Below the pieces are notes generated by a model. It was not told the DNA's origin and did not search any database. It saw only the letters and a list, made by a program, of their open reading frames with translations. Of a stretch of 64,000 bases of DNA, positions 2,956 through 13,759 are shown in pieces (the stretch's first letter is position 1; each line of letters opens with the position of its first letter). Made by a program: the position numbers and the translations under genes. This DNA is from Schaalia sp. 19OD2882 (GTDB taxonomy: Bacteria; Actinomycetota; Actinomycetes; Actinomycetales; Actinomycetaceae). Location of the stretch: NCBI RefSeq assembly GCF_018986735.1, contig NZ_CP065521.1, positions 496,001 through 560,000 of the forward strand. Direction: 5' to 3'.

Positions 2956-2977
2956 TGTTCTGTGGCCCGGATGGCCG

Positions 2978-3391
2978 CTACTGACTCTCCAGTGAATTGA
3001 CGTCGAGCATCCGATCCACGCCCGGCAGCAGGATGTGAATCGCTTGGTACTCGGTTCCGTTGCAAGTCACTTTCTGGCCAAGTTCCTCAAACGGGGAGGC
3101 CACGAAGGTTTCACCCACGGCAATGGTCACCTTTCCGGCCGTGATGGATGTGCCATCGGGTGGGCCCGTCACCGATTCGGAGAAGACGATCAAGCGACCG
3201 TGGTCGTCGATCGGACAGATCTCCGTCGCCCCGGCGTCGATTCGCGTCAAGGGGTAGAACAGGGCCGAGGACATGACCGTCTCCGACGTCGGAGGCAGCT
3301 GCGGTGCCGGTAGTGCGCCTCCTGCACAGCCGGTGACACCGAGTCCGGCAAGTGTGGTGAGGCCGAGCGCACGCTTCAACATCTTTCTCAT
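2978..3391 (-). CDS. Secreted lipoprotein of unknown function
   Basis: With the ATG at 3391 the protein has 137 residues. It begins with a basic stretch (MRKMLKRALG), a hydrophobic core and a lipobox 'GVTGC', so it should be exported and lipid-anchored. The mature part is polar, with 'ALFYPLTRIDAGATEICPIDDHGR' and later 'KVTCNGTEYQAIHILLPG'. Its two cysteines could form a disulfide. An upstream in-frame start nine codons earlier is possible, but the lipoprotein signal fits the later start better. The start codon overlaps the stop of the upstream broken gene (ATGA), so the two were once one transcriptional unit. No family recognised. Confidence 0.7.
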   Translation of the reverse strand: MRKMLKRALGLTTLAGLGVTGCAGGALPAPQLPPTSETVMSSALFYPLTRIDAGATEICPIDDHGRLIVFSESVTGPPDGTSITAGKVTIAVGETFVASPFEELGQKVTCNGTEYQAIHILLPGVDRMLDVNSLESQ

Positions 3392-4365
3392 GAGAGCACC
3401 CTGATGTTCGGATTCCATTTGAGTACGCCGCCGTTCCGCCCCCCACAGTCGGCAACTCCATCCGGATTCGAGTCGTGAGGCGGCTCTGGCAACAAGCCGA
3501 CTGTCGGTTGGTTGAGGTAGGTGCTCGGCGTGTCAGTGCCTCGCACGATGTGGCGACGGATGTGCTCGGTCGTCACCCCGCTTGAGCGCGCCATGGCCCA
3601 CTGGTCCACTCCTGCGCACCACAGGCTGACGCATCGCCGGTGCTTGAGTGGTCGGCAGGGTCCGTGAAGACAGGCGGCGCCAAGAACGTGGTTCCGGCAC
3701 AGTGGCTCGCCATCAAATGCCATGGGCGGCCATCGAGTCCTCCAAGGTCTTCGACTGCGTCTCCGTGGTCGACGAACGCATATGCCGAAGGATTGCTGAG
3801 GAGGGGGTGGTTAGACGCCTCGTTGGCGATTCGACGTGCGACCTCCGCAGGCATGTCGAGTTCCACTTGATTGTTCACGGGGTCGATTGACGCTGCGCGC
3901 AACCCCTTGCCGACCAGTGCTTCCATCGCCTGGTCCTGGAAGTTGAGCAACTCGGTCCGCGAGAACTGCTTTCGAATGACGTTGACGACCTCGGAATGGG
4001 CCTGCACCAATGAGTTGATTTCCGGCGTCTTTGCCAGGGCCTCGTCGTCCGCGATGTACAGATTCACGCTTTGCCGGTCCCAAGCAGCCGCGACACCGGC
4101 GAACAGATCCGGGTTCTCATTGACCAGGTCATGCAGTTGAGTGGCCAGGTCTTCAAGCTCCGGGGGAGCCTCGCCGTGCCAATACTCCGCCGAAGAGGGG
4201 GTGGGGGGGTGCGGGAGAGGTCTCCGGAACGGTCGGAGTGGACAATGCGGGCGATGCCGACACGCTTGTGACGATGGCAGCGAGACCGAAGGTCGCGAAG
4301 CAGGTCCTGAGGAAATGGCTGCGGTGAGACATCAGAGTCCTCCTTGACATTGGTTGCACATGCAT
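3388..4365 (-). pseudogene. Frame-broken secreted protein
   Basis: Three successive minus-strand frames join into one plausible secreted protein. The first (from 4365) is a signal peptide, 'FGLAAIVTSVSASPALS'. The second runs from about 4200 to 3600 and reads 'SSAEYWHGEAPPELEDL', 'NPDLFAGVAAAWDRQSVNLY' and 'IADDEALAKTPEINSLVQAH'. The third (3388-3620) ends in an ATGA overlap with the lipoprotein gene. The first break lies in a run of seven C on the coding strand (4203-4209); losing one C would join signal peptide and mature protein. The second lies near 3610-3625. The middle part loosely resembles the pro-region of S1-type secreted proteases, but no catalytic triad is visible. Real pseudogene, phase-variable gene or sequencing error cannot be told apart here. 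Confidence 0.6.
4197..4209. repeat. Homopolymer pair G5-T-G7 at the frameshift
   Basis: The plus strand reads five G, one T and seven G (C7-A-C5 on the coding strand). It sits just after the signal peptide of the broken secreted gene. Slippage by one base in the seven-base run would restore or break the reading frame. Confidence 0.6.
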
Positions 4366-4504
4366 GGTATAGATCTGGAGAAATTGGTGTCAAAAGTCTC
4401 AGTTGGTGTATGGGCCTCGCGTGTGGAGCGTGCCGCGTGAGTATCTTTGTCGATGCAATTTACGCCTGTTCAAAGCGAGAGTGATTGGGCGGGCAGGTCG
4501 GACT

Positions 4505-5236
4505 TCAGTCCAACAAAAGTACGCGGGTCGGAGTGATGACTGCATTCACCGAACGGTCATGAGTCTCTCGCGGAATGGTGCCGGCGGGCAGGACCTCCTC
4601 GTCGAAGACGGCCGCCACCACGGGAACGCCCTCGCGCACATGGAGCAGCGCTCGGTCGTACCACCCGCCTCCTTGCCCCAGACGGGTCCCCGAGGCGTCC
4701 ACCGCCAGGGCGGGCGCCAGAACCACATCCGCGCATGCCAACACCGACGGGGGGAGCCTGGCAGCGGAGGGCTGCAAGGGCAGGTGCGGGTCGGGGGAGT
4801 GGAGCTGCGAGGAAGCCCTTGGCCCCACCAACCCCGCATCCGACAGATCACACCATCCCCACATGGGATCGGCCAGCGCCGCCCCGCCCTCGTCGGTGAG
4901 AACAGGAAGCAGACACCTGCCCGCCCTCGCCACGATCCCGCGGACATCAGGTTCAACGAGGGTGGGCCAGAAGAGGGCGGCCGTGAGGCCACTGCGCGGG
5001 GCCGACGATGCAGTGGGAGCCGGGACGAAAGGGGAGGGGGGATCGGCCGAAACGGCTGAGGCGGGCGGAATCGCCGGTCCCAGTGTGGCCAGCACCTGCC
5101 TCCAGCTTGCCAGCAGACCAAGGGTCTCCTCGCCGAAGGCGGCGGGCAAGGGCCACGGCGTCCGCGAGATTCCGACAAGGCCCCGGCGCACGCGCCGAGC
5201 CGCCCGCAGCTCCCGCCGGATCCGCGCCTTGCCCAC
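4505..5236 (-). CDS. 5-formyltetrahydrofolate cyclo-ligase
   Basis: The protein (243 residues, GTG start, GGGAG seven bases upstream) converts 5-formyl-THF to 5,10-methenyl-THF using ATP. The C-terminal signature 'GTRLGQGGGWYDRALLH' is the conserved ATP/Mg-binding loop. The N-terminus 'KARIRRELRAARR' is the usual basic helix. The middle (about 45-80) is a proline/alanine-rich insertion that is not well conserved. It is divergent from galU, with 44 bases between the starts. This neighbourhood with galU and mscL is common in actinobacteria. Confidence 0.9.
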   Translation of the reverse strand: MGKARIRRELRAARRVRRGLVGISRTPWPLPAAFGEETLGLLASWRQVLATLGPAIPPASAVSADPPSPFVPAPTASSAPRSGLTAALFWPTLVEPDVRGIVARAGRCLLPVLTDEGGAALADPMWGWCDLSDAGLVGPRASSQLHSPDPHLPLQPSAARLPPSVLACADVVLAPALAVDASGTRLGQGGGWYDRALLHVREGVPVVAAVFDEEVLPAGTIPRETHDRSVNAVITPTRVLLLD

Positions 5237-9551: not shown

Positions 9552-9624
9552 GGGGCTATGGCGCAGTTGGTAGCGCGTCTCGTTCGCAATGAGAAGGTCA
9601 GGGGTTCGAATCCCCTTAGCTCCA
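9552..9624 (+). tRNA. tRNA-Ala (anticodon CGC)
   Basis: The 73-base gene folds as a full cloverleaf. The acceptor is GGGGCTA/TAGCTCC with one G-T pair, the D-arm region is GCGCAGTTGGTAGCGC, and the anticodon stem TCTCG/TGAGA surrounds the loop TTCGCAA, giving anticodon CGC (reads GCG). The T-arm is AGGGGTTCGAATCCCCT. The CCA end is not encoded. A TAGACT box at 9531-9536 could be its -10. A decayed recombinase and a mobilizable element lie directly downstream, so its 3' end is the likely integration site. Confidence 0.95.
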
Positions 9625-9630
9625 CTCCGG

Positions 9631-10454: not shown

Positions 10455-10490
10455 CTGAGGTAGAAACAAGCCCGCGGAGAGAGGATGAAC

Positions 10491-12485
10491 ATGGCGAACG
10501 AGAAGGTGACGGACCAGATCGTCCGCGACATGCTGCGCGAGATCGGTTTCGAGCGTCCTTGGGAGCAGGACGGCGGTCCGCAGTGGAAGCGCGACGCCCT
10601 CAAGGGAGGGTCGAAGTCGGTCTCCGGCAATGCCGAAGGCAAGCCTGAGTTCGTCTTCGTCTCAGGTGGCTTCGTTGTCGTGGTCGAGGACAAGAAGGAT
10701 GTCCAGCGCACGCGCTACCTCGTCGACGGTGACCCGACCACCGAGCATCCCTACCGTGCCGACTACGCGCTCAACGGTGCGATCCACTACGCGAAGACCA
10801 TGCTCGCCAACGGCATCCCGTTCGACAAGGGCATCTTCGCCGTGGGTGTTGGCGGTGGCGAGGTCCACCACGAGATCGCCGTGTCCTACCTCGCTCCCGG
10901 CTTCGTCAAGCACCTTGACGACCTCGACAACCTCGACGTGTTCTCTGAGAAGGAGATCGGCGAGTACTACGCCGTCCAGGTCCGCGGGCAGCGCCCGCGC
11001 GCGGAGGTCCAGCTCGACGATGTTCGTGCCGCTGCTGAGCGCCTGCACGAGGGGATGCGCAACTACGGCTCCGTTGAGAATGACCGCAAGGCGCCGCTCG
11101 TCTCCGCAATCCTCCTCGCGTTCCAGTACCCCTACTTCGACCTTGACCGTCTCCAGAGTATCTCGCCGGGCAACAACTACCAGGTCTGGGACGGGCGCAT
11201 CATCTACGACGCAGCCGAGCAGTACATGAAGTCCGAGGCGCTCATGCCGCAGGCCAAGATCGGAACCCTTCTCGACCAGTTCTCCTTCATCAAGACCGCA
11301 CCCCAGCTAAACCGTGCCCACCGCGACCTGGGTGAGTCACCGCTGAAGTGGATGGCGCGCATCCTGGCCAACGACGTCTACCACGTCGTCACCGACCCCT
11401 CCATGACCGCCTTCGACGTGCTCGGCAACTTCTACCACGAGTTCATCTCCTACGGCGGCGGCGACGGATCGGGTCTGGGTATTGTCCTCACCCCCGAGCA
11501 CGTCACCACGCTCATGGCAGAGCTGATCGACGTCAACGCGACCGACTACGTGCTCGACCCCACCGCAGGCACGGCGTCCTTCCTTATTGCCGCCATGCAG
11601 CGCATGTTTGACGACGCCGGGGACAACACCGCACTCCGTGAGGACATCCGCAAGAACAGGCTCTACGGCATCGAGCTGCAAGACAAGCTGTTCGCCATCG
11701 GTACGACGAACATGATCCTGCGCGGCGACGGCAAGGCGAACTTCCGCCGCGACTCCATCTTCGAGGCACCCATGGCCGAGATGCGCGGGGACGTGAAGCT
11801 GCCCGACGGCAGTATCGCCTTCGGCCACGGATTCACCAAGGTTCTACTCAACCCGCCGTACTCCCAGGCCAAGGACAGGAGCACACGCAACCTGTCCGAG
11901 CTGGCCTTCATCCAGCGAGCCCTGGAGTTCCTCAACCCCGGCGGAAAGCTCGCCGTCATCGTTCCCCAGTCCGCCATGGTCGGCAAGACCAAGGAGGACA
12001 AGGCCCGCAAGCGCTACATCCTTGAGCACAACACGCTGGAGACCGCCATCACGATGAACCCGATGACCTTCACCAACTCCGGGCACACGCCCCACACCGT
12101 CATCGCGATCTTCACCGCAGGCCGCAAGCACCCCGACCACCACGTGGTCCGCTTCGTGAACTTCGAGAAGGACGGATGGGTTGTCGCCCCACACCGTGGC
12201 CTCGTCGACGACGGCACCGTCGCCTCACGTCGCAAGCACCTGCTGGAGGTGCTGCGCGGAGACGTCCAAGACGACACCAGCTTCATCGTCCGCTCCGAGG
12301 TCACCGCCGAGGACGAGTGGCAGCACAGCTACTTCTACTTCAACGACCAGCCACCCACCTACGAGGACTTTCTCGCCACCGTCGCCGACTACGTGACCTG
12401 GCAGGTCGACATGCACGCCCACGGGCGCGGCGACCTCATCACGCCGTCCGTGAGCCCGTCCAGCGACGAGGAGACCGGCGAATGA
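10491..12485 (+). CDS. BcgI-like restriction-modification subunit (nuclease + N6-adenine methyltransferase)
   Basis: The protein has 664 residues from the ATG at 10491, which is preceded by GAGAGG with a six-base spacer; the ATG at 10485 is too close to that site. The N-terminal domain carries P52-E53 and, 13 residues on, E66-D67-K68 ('VVVVEDKKD'), the PD-(D/E)xK nuclease pattern with the spacing seen in BcgIA. A helical region follows, then a gamma-class N6-adenine methyltransferase: motif I D356-P-T-A-G and catalytic motif IV N454-P-P-Y. Length, domain order and the absence of any hsdR fit the A subunit of a Type IIB enzyme, which pairs with a separate specificity subunit. The stop overlaps the next start (ATGA). 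Confidence 0.85.
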   Translation: MANEKVTDQIVRDMLREIGFERPWEQDGGPQWKRDALKGGSKSVSGNAEGKPEFVFVSGGFVVVVEDKKDVQRTRYLVDGDPTTEHPYRADYALNGAIHYAKTMLANGIPFDKGIFAVGVGGGEVHHEIAVSYLAPGFVKHLDDLDNLDVFSEKEIGEYYAVQVRGQRPRAEVQLDDVRAAAERLHEGMRNYGSVENDRKAPLVSAILLAFQYPYFDLDRLQSISPGNNYQVWDGRIIYDAAEQYMKSEALMPQAKIGTLLDQFSFIKTAPQLNRAHRDLGESPLKWMARILANDVYHVVTDPSMTAFDVLGNFYHEFISYGGGDGSGLGIVLTPEHVTTLMAELIDVNATDYVLDPTAGTASFLIAAMQRMFDDAGDNTALREDIRKNRLYGIELQDKLFAIGTTNMILRGDGKANFRRDSIFEAPMAEMRGDVKLPDGSIAFGHGFTKVLLNPPYSQAKDRSTRNLSELAFIQRALEFLNPGGKLAVIVPQSAMVGKTKEDKARKRYILEHNTLETAITMNPMTFTNSGHTPHTVIAIFTAGRKHPDHHVVRFVNFEKDGWVVAPHRGLVDDGTVASRRKHLLEVLRGDVQDDTSFIVRSEVTAEDEWQHSYFYFNDQPPTYEDFLATVADYVTWQVDMHAHGRGDLITPSVSPSSDEETGE

Positions 12486-13015
12486 GCGTCCTCGAAACCC
12501 TCGACTTCCAGCCAATGTTGATTGTAGATTTATTCCGCCCTCATAAGGGTAAGAGACTTATCGCAGCACATCGAGAGCCGGGAAAGACCCCTTTCGTTGG
12601 AGGCTCCGAATCTTTCAACAGCATTACGGACTTCTCCAGCGTCAAGCCACTGTTTCCTGGTGGTTGGCTTACTCTCGTGTATAACGGCTCAGTAGGGCAA
12701 ACGCGCCTACAGTCGGCGCCGTTCTTTGCGTCGGACGATGTGATTGCGCTAGAGCCGCGTATCCCGCACGTGTCGCATCCGGCACTTCTTGTATGTGCTG
12801 CGATCATTCAACGTGAATGTGTCAACAAGTACTCCTATGGCACGAAGCTAAACTTGCAACGGCTTAATCGTCAGACCGTCGCGATTCCGGCTATCACGAA
12901 CGCCGACGGCACTGTTGAGGCTGACTGGGACGGCATGGACCGGCTCGGTGCGGAGCTGCTCGATCACGTCCTCACACACACACACACACACCGCTCGCCA
13001 GACTCGCCGCACTGA
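12482..13015 (+). CDS. BcgIB-like specificity subunit, first half (truncated at the CA tract)
   Basis: The ATG overlaps the stop of the methyltransferase gene. The 177-residue frame begins 'LETLDFQPMLIVDLFRP' and has the composition of a target-recognition domain. It reaches 'IPAITNADGTVEADWDGMDR' and then runs into 'LTHTHTHRSPDSPH' and a stop, because a (CA)9 tract throws it out of frame. The downstream half continues in another frame and repeats the same layout ('LTFEPMFITDVFDS', 'VPVVTDASGEDVVDWDGM'). With 7, 10 or 13 CA units the two halves would fuse into one protein of about 355 residues (10 units), close to the size of BcgIB. At present it encodes one recognition domain only. Confidence 0.75.
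   Translation: MSVLETLDFQPMLIVDLFRPHKGKRLIAAHREPGKTPFVGGSESFNSITDFSSVKPLFPGGWLTLVYNGSVGQTRLQSAPFFASDDVIALEPRIPHVSHPALLVCAAIIQRECVNKYSYGTKLNLQRLNRQTVAIPAITNADGTVEADWDGMDRLGAELLDHVLTHTHTHRSPDSPH
12973..12990 (+). repeat. (CA)9 microsatellite inside the specificity gene
   Basis: Nine uninterrupted CA units lie in the coding sequence between the two recognition domains. They encode alternating Thr-His. Each gain or loss of a unit shifts the frame by two bases. Nine units give the short form; a gain of one or a loss of two restores the long form. With eight units the frame would stop at 13036-13038. Confidence 0.9.
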
Positions 13016-13547
13016 CGACGACACACTCCCGGAACTGACGTTCGAGCCCATGTTCATCACGGATGTGTTCGACTCGATGACGGCATCCAGGGCGTGGTAC
13101 GACAAGGTTCACCTTGCCGACGGCACGGGCCGCAATCTCTACCTCAGCCAGACCCTCGGCGGGAACTCTGTTTCAGCGGTCGTCGCCGACCAGACCTCGC
13201 GCCCGGAGGCTGGCAACTGCATCACGGTGACGCTCAAGACGCAGTCGACGTTCTACCAGCCAGCGCCCTTCTACACGGCTCAGAACTTCCTCATCTTCAG
13301 GCACGAGAACCTCGATGCCGACAGCGGTCTCTTCCTCGTGACCACGATGCGCAACGCGATGGGCAAGTTCTCCTGGGGCTATGGAGTGTCAATGGCTCGC
13401 CTGGAGAAGACCCGAATCATGGTTCCCGTCGTCACCGACGCCTCGGGCGAGGATGTCGTCGACTGGGACGGCATGAGCGCCTATGGTCACGCCCTGCGCG
13501 TGCGCGCCGAACGTGCCATCGCACCCGTCATTGGAGCCCCGTCATGA
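12992..13547 (+). pseudogene. BcgIB-like specificity subunit, second half (out of frame, no own start)
   Basis: This frame carries the second recognition domain: 'LPELTFEPMFITDVFDSMT', 'NLYLSQTLGGNSVSAVVADQ' and 'VVDWDGMSAYGHALRVRAER'. It has no ribosome-binding site near its first possible ATG (13050), so it is probably expressed only when the CA tract puts it in frame with the first half. The repeated arrangement (F-x-P-M-x-I-x-D-x-F near the start, Asp-Trp-Asp-Gly-Met near the end of each half) shows the two halves are tandem copies of the same domain. The stop overlaps the next start (ATGA). It is marked as a pseudogene for lack of a better term; phase-OFF is the preferred reading. Confidence 0.7.
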
Positions 13548-13759
13548 GCCGTGCACCCAACCCCGCTCGCGGCGTCGGCCAGGACGTGCGCGACGCCAGG
13601 CGCGCCCTTGGATGGAGCCAGACCGAGCTCGCACGCCGAGCCCACGTCTCGCGTCCGACCATCGCACGCGTCGAGACGGGCGTGAACATCTCCACCGGGA
13701 CGCTGGAGAAGGTGGTTAAGGCGCTCGGCAAGCGGCTGCGCATCTCAGACCAGCTCTGA
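13544..13759 (+). CDS. XRE-family HTH regulator, possible controller protein of the R-M system
   Basis: The protein has 71 residues with a complete helix-turn-helix: 'GQDVRDARRALGWSQTELAR' then 'AHVSRPTIARVETG', followed by 'NISTGTLEKVVKALGKRLRI'. The ATG overlaps the stop of the specificity gene. It is the last gene of the operon. Small XRE proteins often control R-M expression (C proteins), though HipB/antitoxin-like roles are also possible. No inverted repeat that would clearly be its operator was found at 10390-10490. Confidence 0.75.
   Translation: MSRAPNPARGVGQDVRDARRALGWSQTELARRAHVSRPTIARVETGVNISTGTLEKVVKALGKRLRISDQL

Follow-up and report, generated by a model that had tools for sequence, protein, structure and literature searches.

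A CA repeat between the two recognition domains of a BcgI-like Type IIB specificity gene as a probable phase switch in Schaalia sp. 19OD2882

The specificity (S) gene of a BcgI-like Type IIB restriction-modification operon in Schaalia sp. 19OD2882 carries a pure (CA)9 tract between two Methylase_S domains that read in different frames, and we consider it very probable that the operon is a contingency locus, phase-switched by the number of its CA units. This would place a repeat-driven DNA-specificity switch in Actinomycetota, within a Type IIB system that is probably mobile. The window, which is the whole 64,000-nucleotide stretch of DNA analysed here, spans positions 496001-560000 of a genome assembled in one contig (2.56 Mb, completeness 99.94%). 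In window coordinates, the features of the operon are as follows.

10485..12485, + strand: RM subunit, a fused nuclease and gamma N6-adenine methyltransferase of 666 aa, of the BcgI/Sau42I kind (PADLOC, Pfam)
12482..13015, + strand: S subunit in the nine-unit reading, recognition domain 1 plus spacer helix, 177 aa (PADLOC Specificity_II, 6.9e-17)
12926..12991, + strand: predicted spacer helix codons of domain 1, the helix end being encoded by the tract (AlphaFold2 model of the Rothia aeria S, L010, via alignment)
12973..12990, + strand: (CA)9 tract, the proposed switch
12993..13547, + strand: second recognition domain, in a different frame from the first (Pfam Methylase_S, 5.6e-10)
13544..13759, + strand: Cro/C1-type helix-turn-helix (HTH) protein of 71 aa, candidate controller (Pfam HTH_3, 2e-14)

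The three genes follow one another in the order RM, S, HTH through ATGA overlaps, the S start lying over the RM stop and the HTH start over the S stop, and an HTH gene also follows S in all six close relatives and in one further locus (G1284). A tRNA-Ala(cgc) gene is found upstream of the operon at 9552-9625; downstream, between 14327 and 21111, are genes for a relaxase, a NikA-like protein, a DUF5906 protein and an integrase-core transposase. Because of the tRNA gene on one side and the relaxase, NikA-like and transposase genes on the other, the operon probably lies inside an integrated mobile element. In the out-of-frame states translation stops about 500 nt ahead of the HTH gene, so the level of the HTH protein may also change with the switch.

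The RM protein matches PADLOC REase_MTase_IIG at 614.8 bits, covering positions 1-630 of 637, contains a Pfam N6_Mtase domain (2.6e-28) and shares 45% identity with the RM protein of Staphylococcus phage phi-42, whose system is called Sau42I and BcgI-like in a title from the reference list of PMC3077401. Its identity to 11 relatives, phi-42 among them, ranges from 38 to 92%, and residues E68, K70, D358-P359, G362 and NPPY 456-459 are invariant in the 12 aligned sequences. Nuclease and gamma N6-adenine methyltransferase thus appear, from sequence, to share one RM chain, and a separate S gene supplies two tandem recognition domains, which in the window as sequenced lie in two frames. The assignment to BcgI-like Type IIB restriction-modification, proposed in the initial annotation, is supported by these sequence matches.

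The S frame runs from ATG 12482 to TGA 13013-13015 (177 aa; Pfam Methylase_S, 7.4e-14), and the frame of the second domain is open from TTG 12915 through 13547. Aligned to each other, the two halves are 23% identical (E 7e-14). Both Methylase_S domains occur in one chain in four relatives with a fused S (L005, L008, L010, G087), and the S of Rothia aeria (L010), fused by nature, served for an AlphaFold2 model, which was mapped onto the window by alignment. The model predicts a helix at residues 149-170, of which THTHS forms residues 165-169. Foldseek with this model returned Type I S subunits (1ydx at the top) and BsaXI entry 8w0p chain C at rank 10; the structure-match lists also contain the single-domain protein Esub1 (8vsq, 8vsr).

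The coordinates and frame arithmetic of the initial annotation hold for the tract: 7, 10 or 13 units put the two domains in frame, ten units giving a protein of 355 aa, and eight units lead to a stop at TGA 13036. No (CA)7 run arose in 100 dinucleotide shuffles of the window, a first-order model predicts 1.2e-4 occurrences of (CA)9 genome-wide on both strands, and the window's genome has no other (CA)6-or-longer run. In eight genomes searched for (CA)6-or-longer runs, the tract is the sole such run in each of the six carriers; the other two, G122 (a Bowdeniella MAG that has lost the tract) and G091, are without any. The tract is a pure in-ORF repeat, far above chance expectation, and it sets the reading frame.

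The system was found in 2 of 35 genomes of the genus, 7 of 213 of the family and 8 of 396 of the order. Wider searches gave 1 of 394 in the class (the window's own copy), 2 of 396 in the phylum, 3 of 349 in a further family, 1 of 11 in the genus of G1232 (a copy already known) and 0 of 186 in another family; the window's own genome is included in the genus, family, order, class and phylum counts, and cut-offs varied among searches. This patchy distribution across taxa fits a mobile system, which the Type IIB operon probably is. A contig scan of genomes returned seven loci. The close set likewise comprises seven loci including the window, at an RM identity of at least 89% (relatives' RM 89-93% identical), with the following tracts and frame states.

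Window: (CA)9, split
Schaalia vaccimaxillae (L006): (CA)8, split
Actinomycetaceae MAG (L005): (CA)7, fused
Rothia aeria (L010): (CA)7, fused
[Zimmermannella] bifida (L008): (CA)7, fused
G087: (CA)7, fused
Bowdeniella MAG (L007): impure stretch in place of the tract, split

The tract occupies the same position in all six carriers, and the four seven-unit alleles encode fused S proteins of 353-356 aa. Repeat number varies among these related genomes and alters the frame state, a comparison between species; the closest pair, L005 and L006, is unlike in both tract length and frame state. The frame-switch reading of the initial annotation agrees with this series, in which seven-unit relatives are fused and eight- and nine-unit alleles are split. 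Seven units encode the linker VVTHTHSARETRLADDDTLPEL in Rothia aeria. The linker of an Arthrobacter plasmid locus (L023), VITDMHSAIQTSPADDDTLPDL, has the same length without a pure tract, and that of G1284, AITHAHSARTSDTADADAELPDL, where the repeat run is interrupted by one base and so is not pure, is equal across the tract and one codon longer further on. In both, the length across the tract is in frame and equivalent to seven units; because these loci without a pure tract match the seven-unit length, the ancestral in-frame tract was probably seven units long, eight and nine being out-of-frame slips. Two further loci differ in their domains. G077 has one domain followed by unrelated sequence, either a fossil or a natural half subunit; in G411, excluded from the argument, domain 1 is interrupted and no repeat was found there.

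Fourfold sites were compared in six RM genes (15 pairs), L008 being omitted for its frameshift. They differ at 40-57% in 14 of the 15 pairs and at 12% in L005-L006; five carriers have 283 conserved fourfold codons in common, of which 57 (20%) are spelt the same way in every one. Thirty threonine columns are common to six RM genes, of which five use a single codon throughout and none uses ACA throughout; in the window's RM gene ACA serves for 1 of 37 threonines. Since fourfold sites are so divergent and ACA so rare, the pure ACA-CAC run in the six carriers is not a matter of codon habit. Its purity indicates maintenance and not by itself selection, because slippage can also purge interruptions. 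Ratios of dN/dS for the window halves against near relatives are 0.06-0.09, so neither half looks like a decaying pseudogene, and most of this low-ratio divergence may stem from times spent in frame.

Recognition domains move between positions. At a 60% identity cut, 27 domains from 14 loci group into eight types; the largest, a mixed one, is represented in both positions (for example first in L006 and second in L005 and L007). The type of the window's second domain (TRD2) is also found first in G296, that of the G087 TRD2 first in G1284 and L024, and that of the L006 TRD2 first in L023. Domain movement has been reported for an H. pylori Type IIG S gene in passages of PMC3077401.

Repeats at domain boundaries were surveyed in other BcgI-like lineages. 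A single-protein scan of viral contigs found no relative, and two alignment scans of viral contigs returned distant relatives at 41 and 22 loci. From the first, 32 of 41 were used, four with at most 21 bases after the RM match and five weak partial matches being dropped; from the second, 7 of 22 were used as new contigs, the other 15 being contigs of the first scan. Together with genome, plasmid and phage loci, the survey covers 62 S regions, which form 55 non-redundant groups. Repeats were counted in a set of 55 loci, in some of which RM is partial and of which L072, L106 and L109 are absent from the 62 regions: the RM genes hold one qualifying repeat in 98,610 nt (A9, L059), against 13 in 87,894 nt downstream of RM, a total that G087 brings to 14. 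Twelve of the 14 lie at a domain boundary by eye and nine by an automatic rule (repeat at most 150 nt past a domain-end motif), those of L057, L062 and L069 following a domain end by eye and being missed by the motif; A9 in L042 and T9 in L101 lie away from domain boundaries. With the repeats grouped into lineages by eye, 5 of 7 are at a boundary, compared with the 24.7% of the stretch that boundaries occupy, for a rough binomial value of 0.012. Six of the boundary repeats are CA; the other four lineages carry G, AT, GA or AG.

The architecture of the window, two domains in two frames around a repeat, recurs in L060, with GA10, and in L063, where a second tandem S gene, about 1100-2200 nt past the RM match, has its two domains split by (AG)8. 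In four loci a third domain stands behind the repeat. L057 and L027 (G091) have G10 after a complete two-domain S, with a third domain in another frame, L057 being identical to G091 over 4,884 nt. L059 (RM match 2957-4837) has a 548-codon open stretch from about 4890, with three domains, the last of them preceded by (AT)8. L062 and L069, viral contigs of unknown read support that are 98.5% identical over 5.8 kb, carry (AT)16 versus (AT)12 between domains 2 and 3, at about 6988 (1113 nt past the RM match end), and come closest to a length polymorphism within one lineage. Plasmid and phage searches yielded only relatives below 80% identity, and nine of these, L023, L024, L040, L085-L088, L090 and L110, were read for repeats and have no qualifying one. 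The S of a Macrococcoides plasmid (L089, 3303-4330), outside the survey and with a partial RM, is annotated as two overlapping genes; it is split inside domain 2, not at a boundary, with no qualifying repeat. We regard it as an even question whether BcgI-like S genes repeatedly evolve repeat switches at domain boundaries, poly-G in H. pylori being a further instance, some adding a third domain, such that one locus might toggle among one, two and three domains and, with shuffling, explore many specificities. If domain-boundary repeats do recur, apparent S pseudogenes may conceal a class of epigenetic switches.

One rival reading is a dead gene, in which a microsatellite arose in the linker and drifted out of frame, leaving the second half a pseudogene. 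The window and S. vaccimaxillae alleles, both out of frame, speak for it, and some copies of the system do decay: L007, out of frame as well, no longer has the pure tract, and the RM gene of L008 is frameshifted at about 6394, near codon 131 (its S being fused and in frame). For a switch, eight or nine units may be short if it is to work fast. Against such decay, the second halves are open over the whole domain in the split loci (231 codons between stops in the window, 192 in L006 and 206 in L007), six of the seven close loci have a pure tract and four of the seven are in frame, and the window's TRD2 is 90.7% identical to that of Rothia aeria, with dN/dS 0.09. The initial annotation had tied a dead gene to a constant (CA)9 among relatives or to an unrelated second domain in them, and the relatives offer neither, with tract lengths of 7, 7, 7, 7, 8 and 9 and this closely matching TRD2. 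We therefore find a maintained repeat switch far likelier than a dead gene, which seems unlikely.

A simple miscount in sequencing or assembly, with a true number of 10 or 7 units and an intact gene, is less probable again; repeat counts are prone to miscalling and the window's species is represented by one assembly, but other assemblies vary too, four of them having 7 units and a fifth 8, the genome is a single contig at 99.94% completeness, and the 18-base run should be short enough to lie within one read. We also think it improbable, if a shade less so than a dead gene, that the gene works in its split state, as a dimerising single-domain S whose second half serves as a store for domain shuffling. 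In its favour, L047, L051 and L086 have single-domain S genes of 165-180 aa next to BcgI-like RM genes, domain types are found in either position when relatives are compared, and domain movement has been reported for the H. pylori gene of the PMC3077401 passages; however, four of the seven close loci have a fused, in-frame S, and shuffling needs no tract.

Under the preferred reading, a switch at the CA tract, replication slippage would probably be the cause, altering the tract by two bases per unit, and the change would be reversible within a clone. Seven units (or 10 or 13) would give one S chain with two recognition domains, which, by analogy with BcgI as described in passages of PMC3874165, would bring two RM subunits together at a bipartite target for methylation and cutting. 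With 8 or 9 units translation would stop after domain 1 and the spacer helix, so that the subunit would lose its bipartite specificity and coupling with the HTH gene would probably be weaker. The role of this short form is the least certain part of the proposal. A homodimer with a palindromic target and an inactive enzyme each seem to us a little short of an even chance, other outcomes taking the small remainder; the homodimer is given this much weight because the short S retains the whole helix that would pair the halves. A change of specificity in a cutting enzyme could be lethal, which counts against a version with two specificities. Since sequenced alleles of both frame states exist, a methylome comparison can test the question of the short form directly. 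An active short form is favoured by the truncated S of NgoAV, by the natural single-domain S genes of L047, L051 and L086 and by mouse colonisation with the one-domain H. pylori wild type; the methylation results for H. pylori constructs, and the self-damage that a second target could bring to a cutting enzyme, count against it. In the single-domain S of L086 (3814-4347, a Lactiplantibacillus plasmid), domain 1 runs in frame into a C-terminus similar to the one in its Paucilactobacillus relative L110 (3814-4890).

Among known systems of the BcgI kind, the one compared was Sau42I of phi-42, which has an S open stretch of 339 codons beside its 45% identical RM protein, and no qualifying simple repeat follows its RM gene. 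The Type IIG enzyme of Campylobacter jejuni resembles the proposed case in that a protein uniting nuclease and methyltransferase is switched by a simple repeat, and differs in being, reportedly, a single chain that lacks a separate S subunit. Phase-variable Type IIG in C. jejuni is the subject of PMC4889913. In the Type I system NgoAV of Neisseria gonorrhoeae, the truncated S is active and methylates a symmetric motif, according to passages of PMC6789123 and PMC3874165; it has a frame switch in the S gene, by poly-G where the CA tract is proposed for the window, and its R and M are separate subunits.

The closest parallel is in Helicobacter pylori. HP1471/JHP1364, which by inference is also the Type IIG S locus with domain movement, is placed in the Type IIB family with a homopolymeric repeat between its two TRDs, of 14 units as published and 13 in another laboratory's same strains (passages of PMC4209511 and PMC3936762). 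The initial annotation knew of no established case of such switching in a Type IIB system; that statement fails, because this BcgI-like S gene has poly-G between its domains. As described in these passages, HP1471/HP1472 and JHP1364/JHP1365 (Hpy99XXII) resemble the window in a fused RM, a separate two-domain S and a simple repeat between the domains whose frame sets whether one or both are read. Passages of PMC3936762 report methylation by JHP1364/JHP1365 with both domains joined, in a construct whose translation start was also altered, and none by corrected HP1471/HP1472. In mice, colonisation was seen with the wild type, which reads one domain, and not with the deletion or locked-on strains (passages of PMC4209511, whose model for the switch is offered there as a hypothesis). 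In the open-licence literature we found no Type IIB S gene reported with a dinucleotide switch, nor any such switch gene from actinobacteria. The H. pylori repeat is poly-G (13 or 14 units) and the Schaalia repeat CA; the H. pylori S is described in the same passages as having no start codon after the RM gene, whereas here there is an ATGA overlap and an HTH gene; and the host is Helicobacter there and a member of Actinomycetota here. What is new in the present system is the dinucleotide tract, its occurrence in Actinomycetota, the length series across genera and the signs of recurrence.
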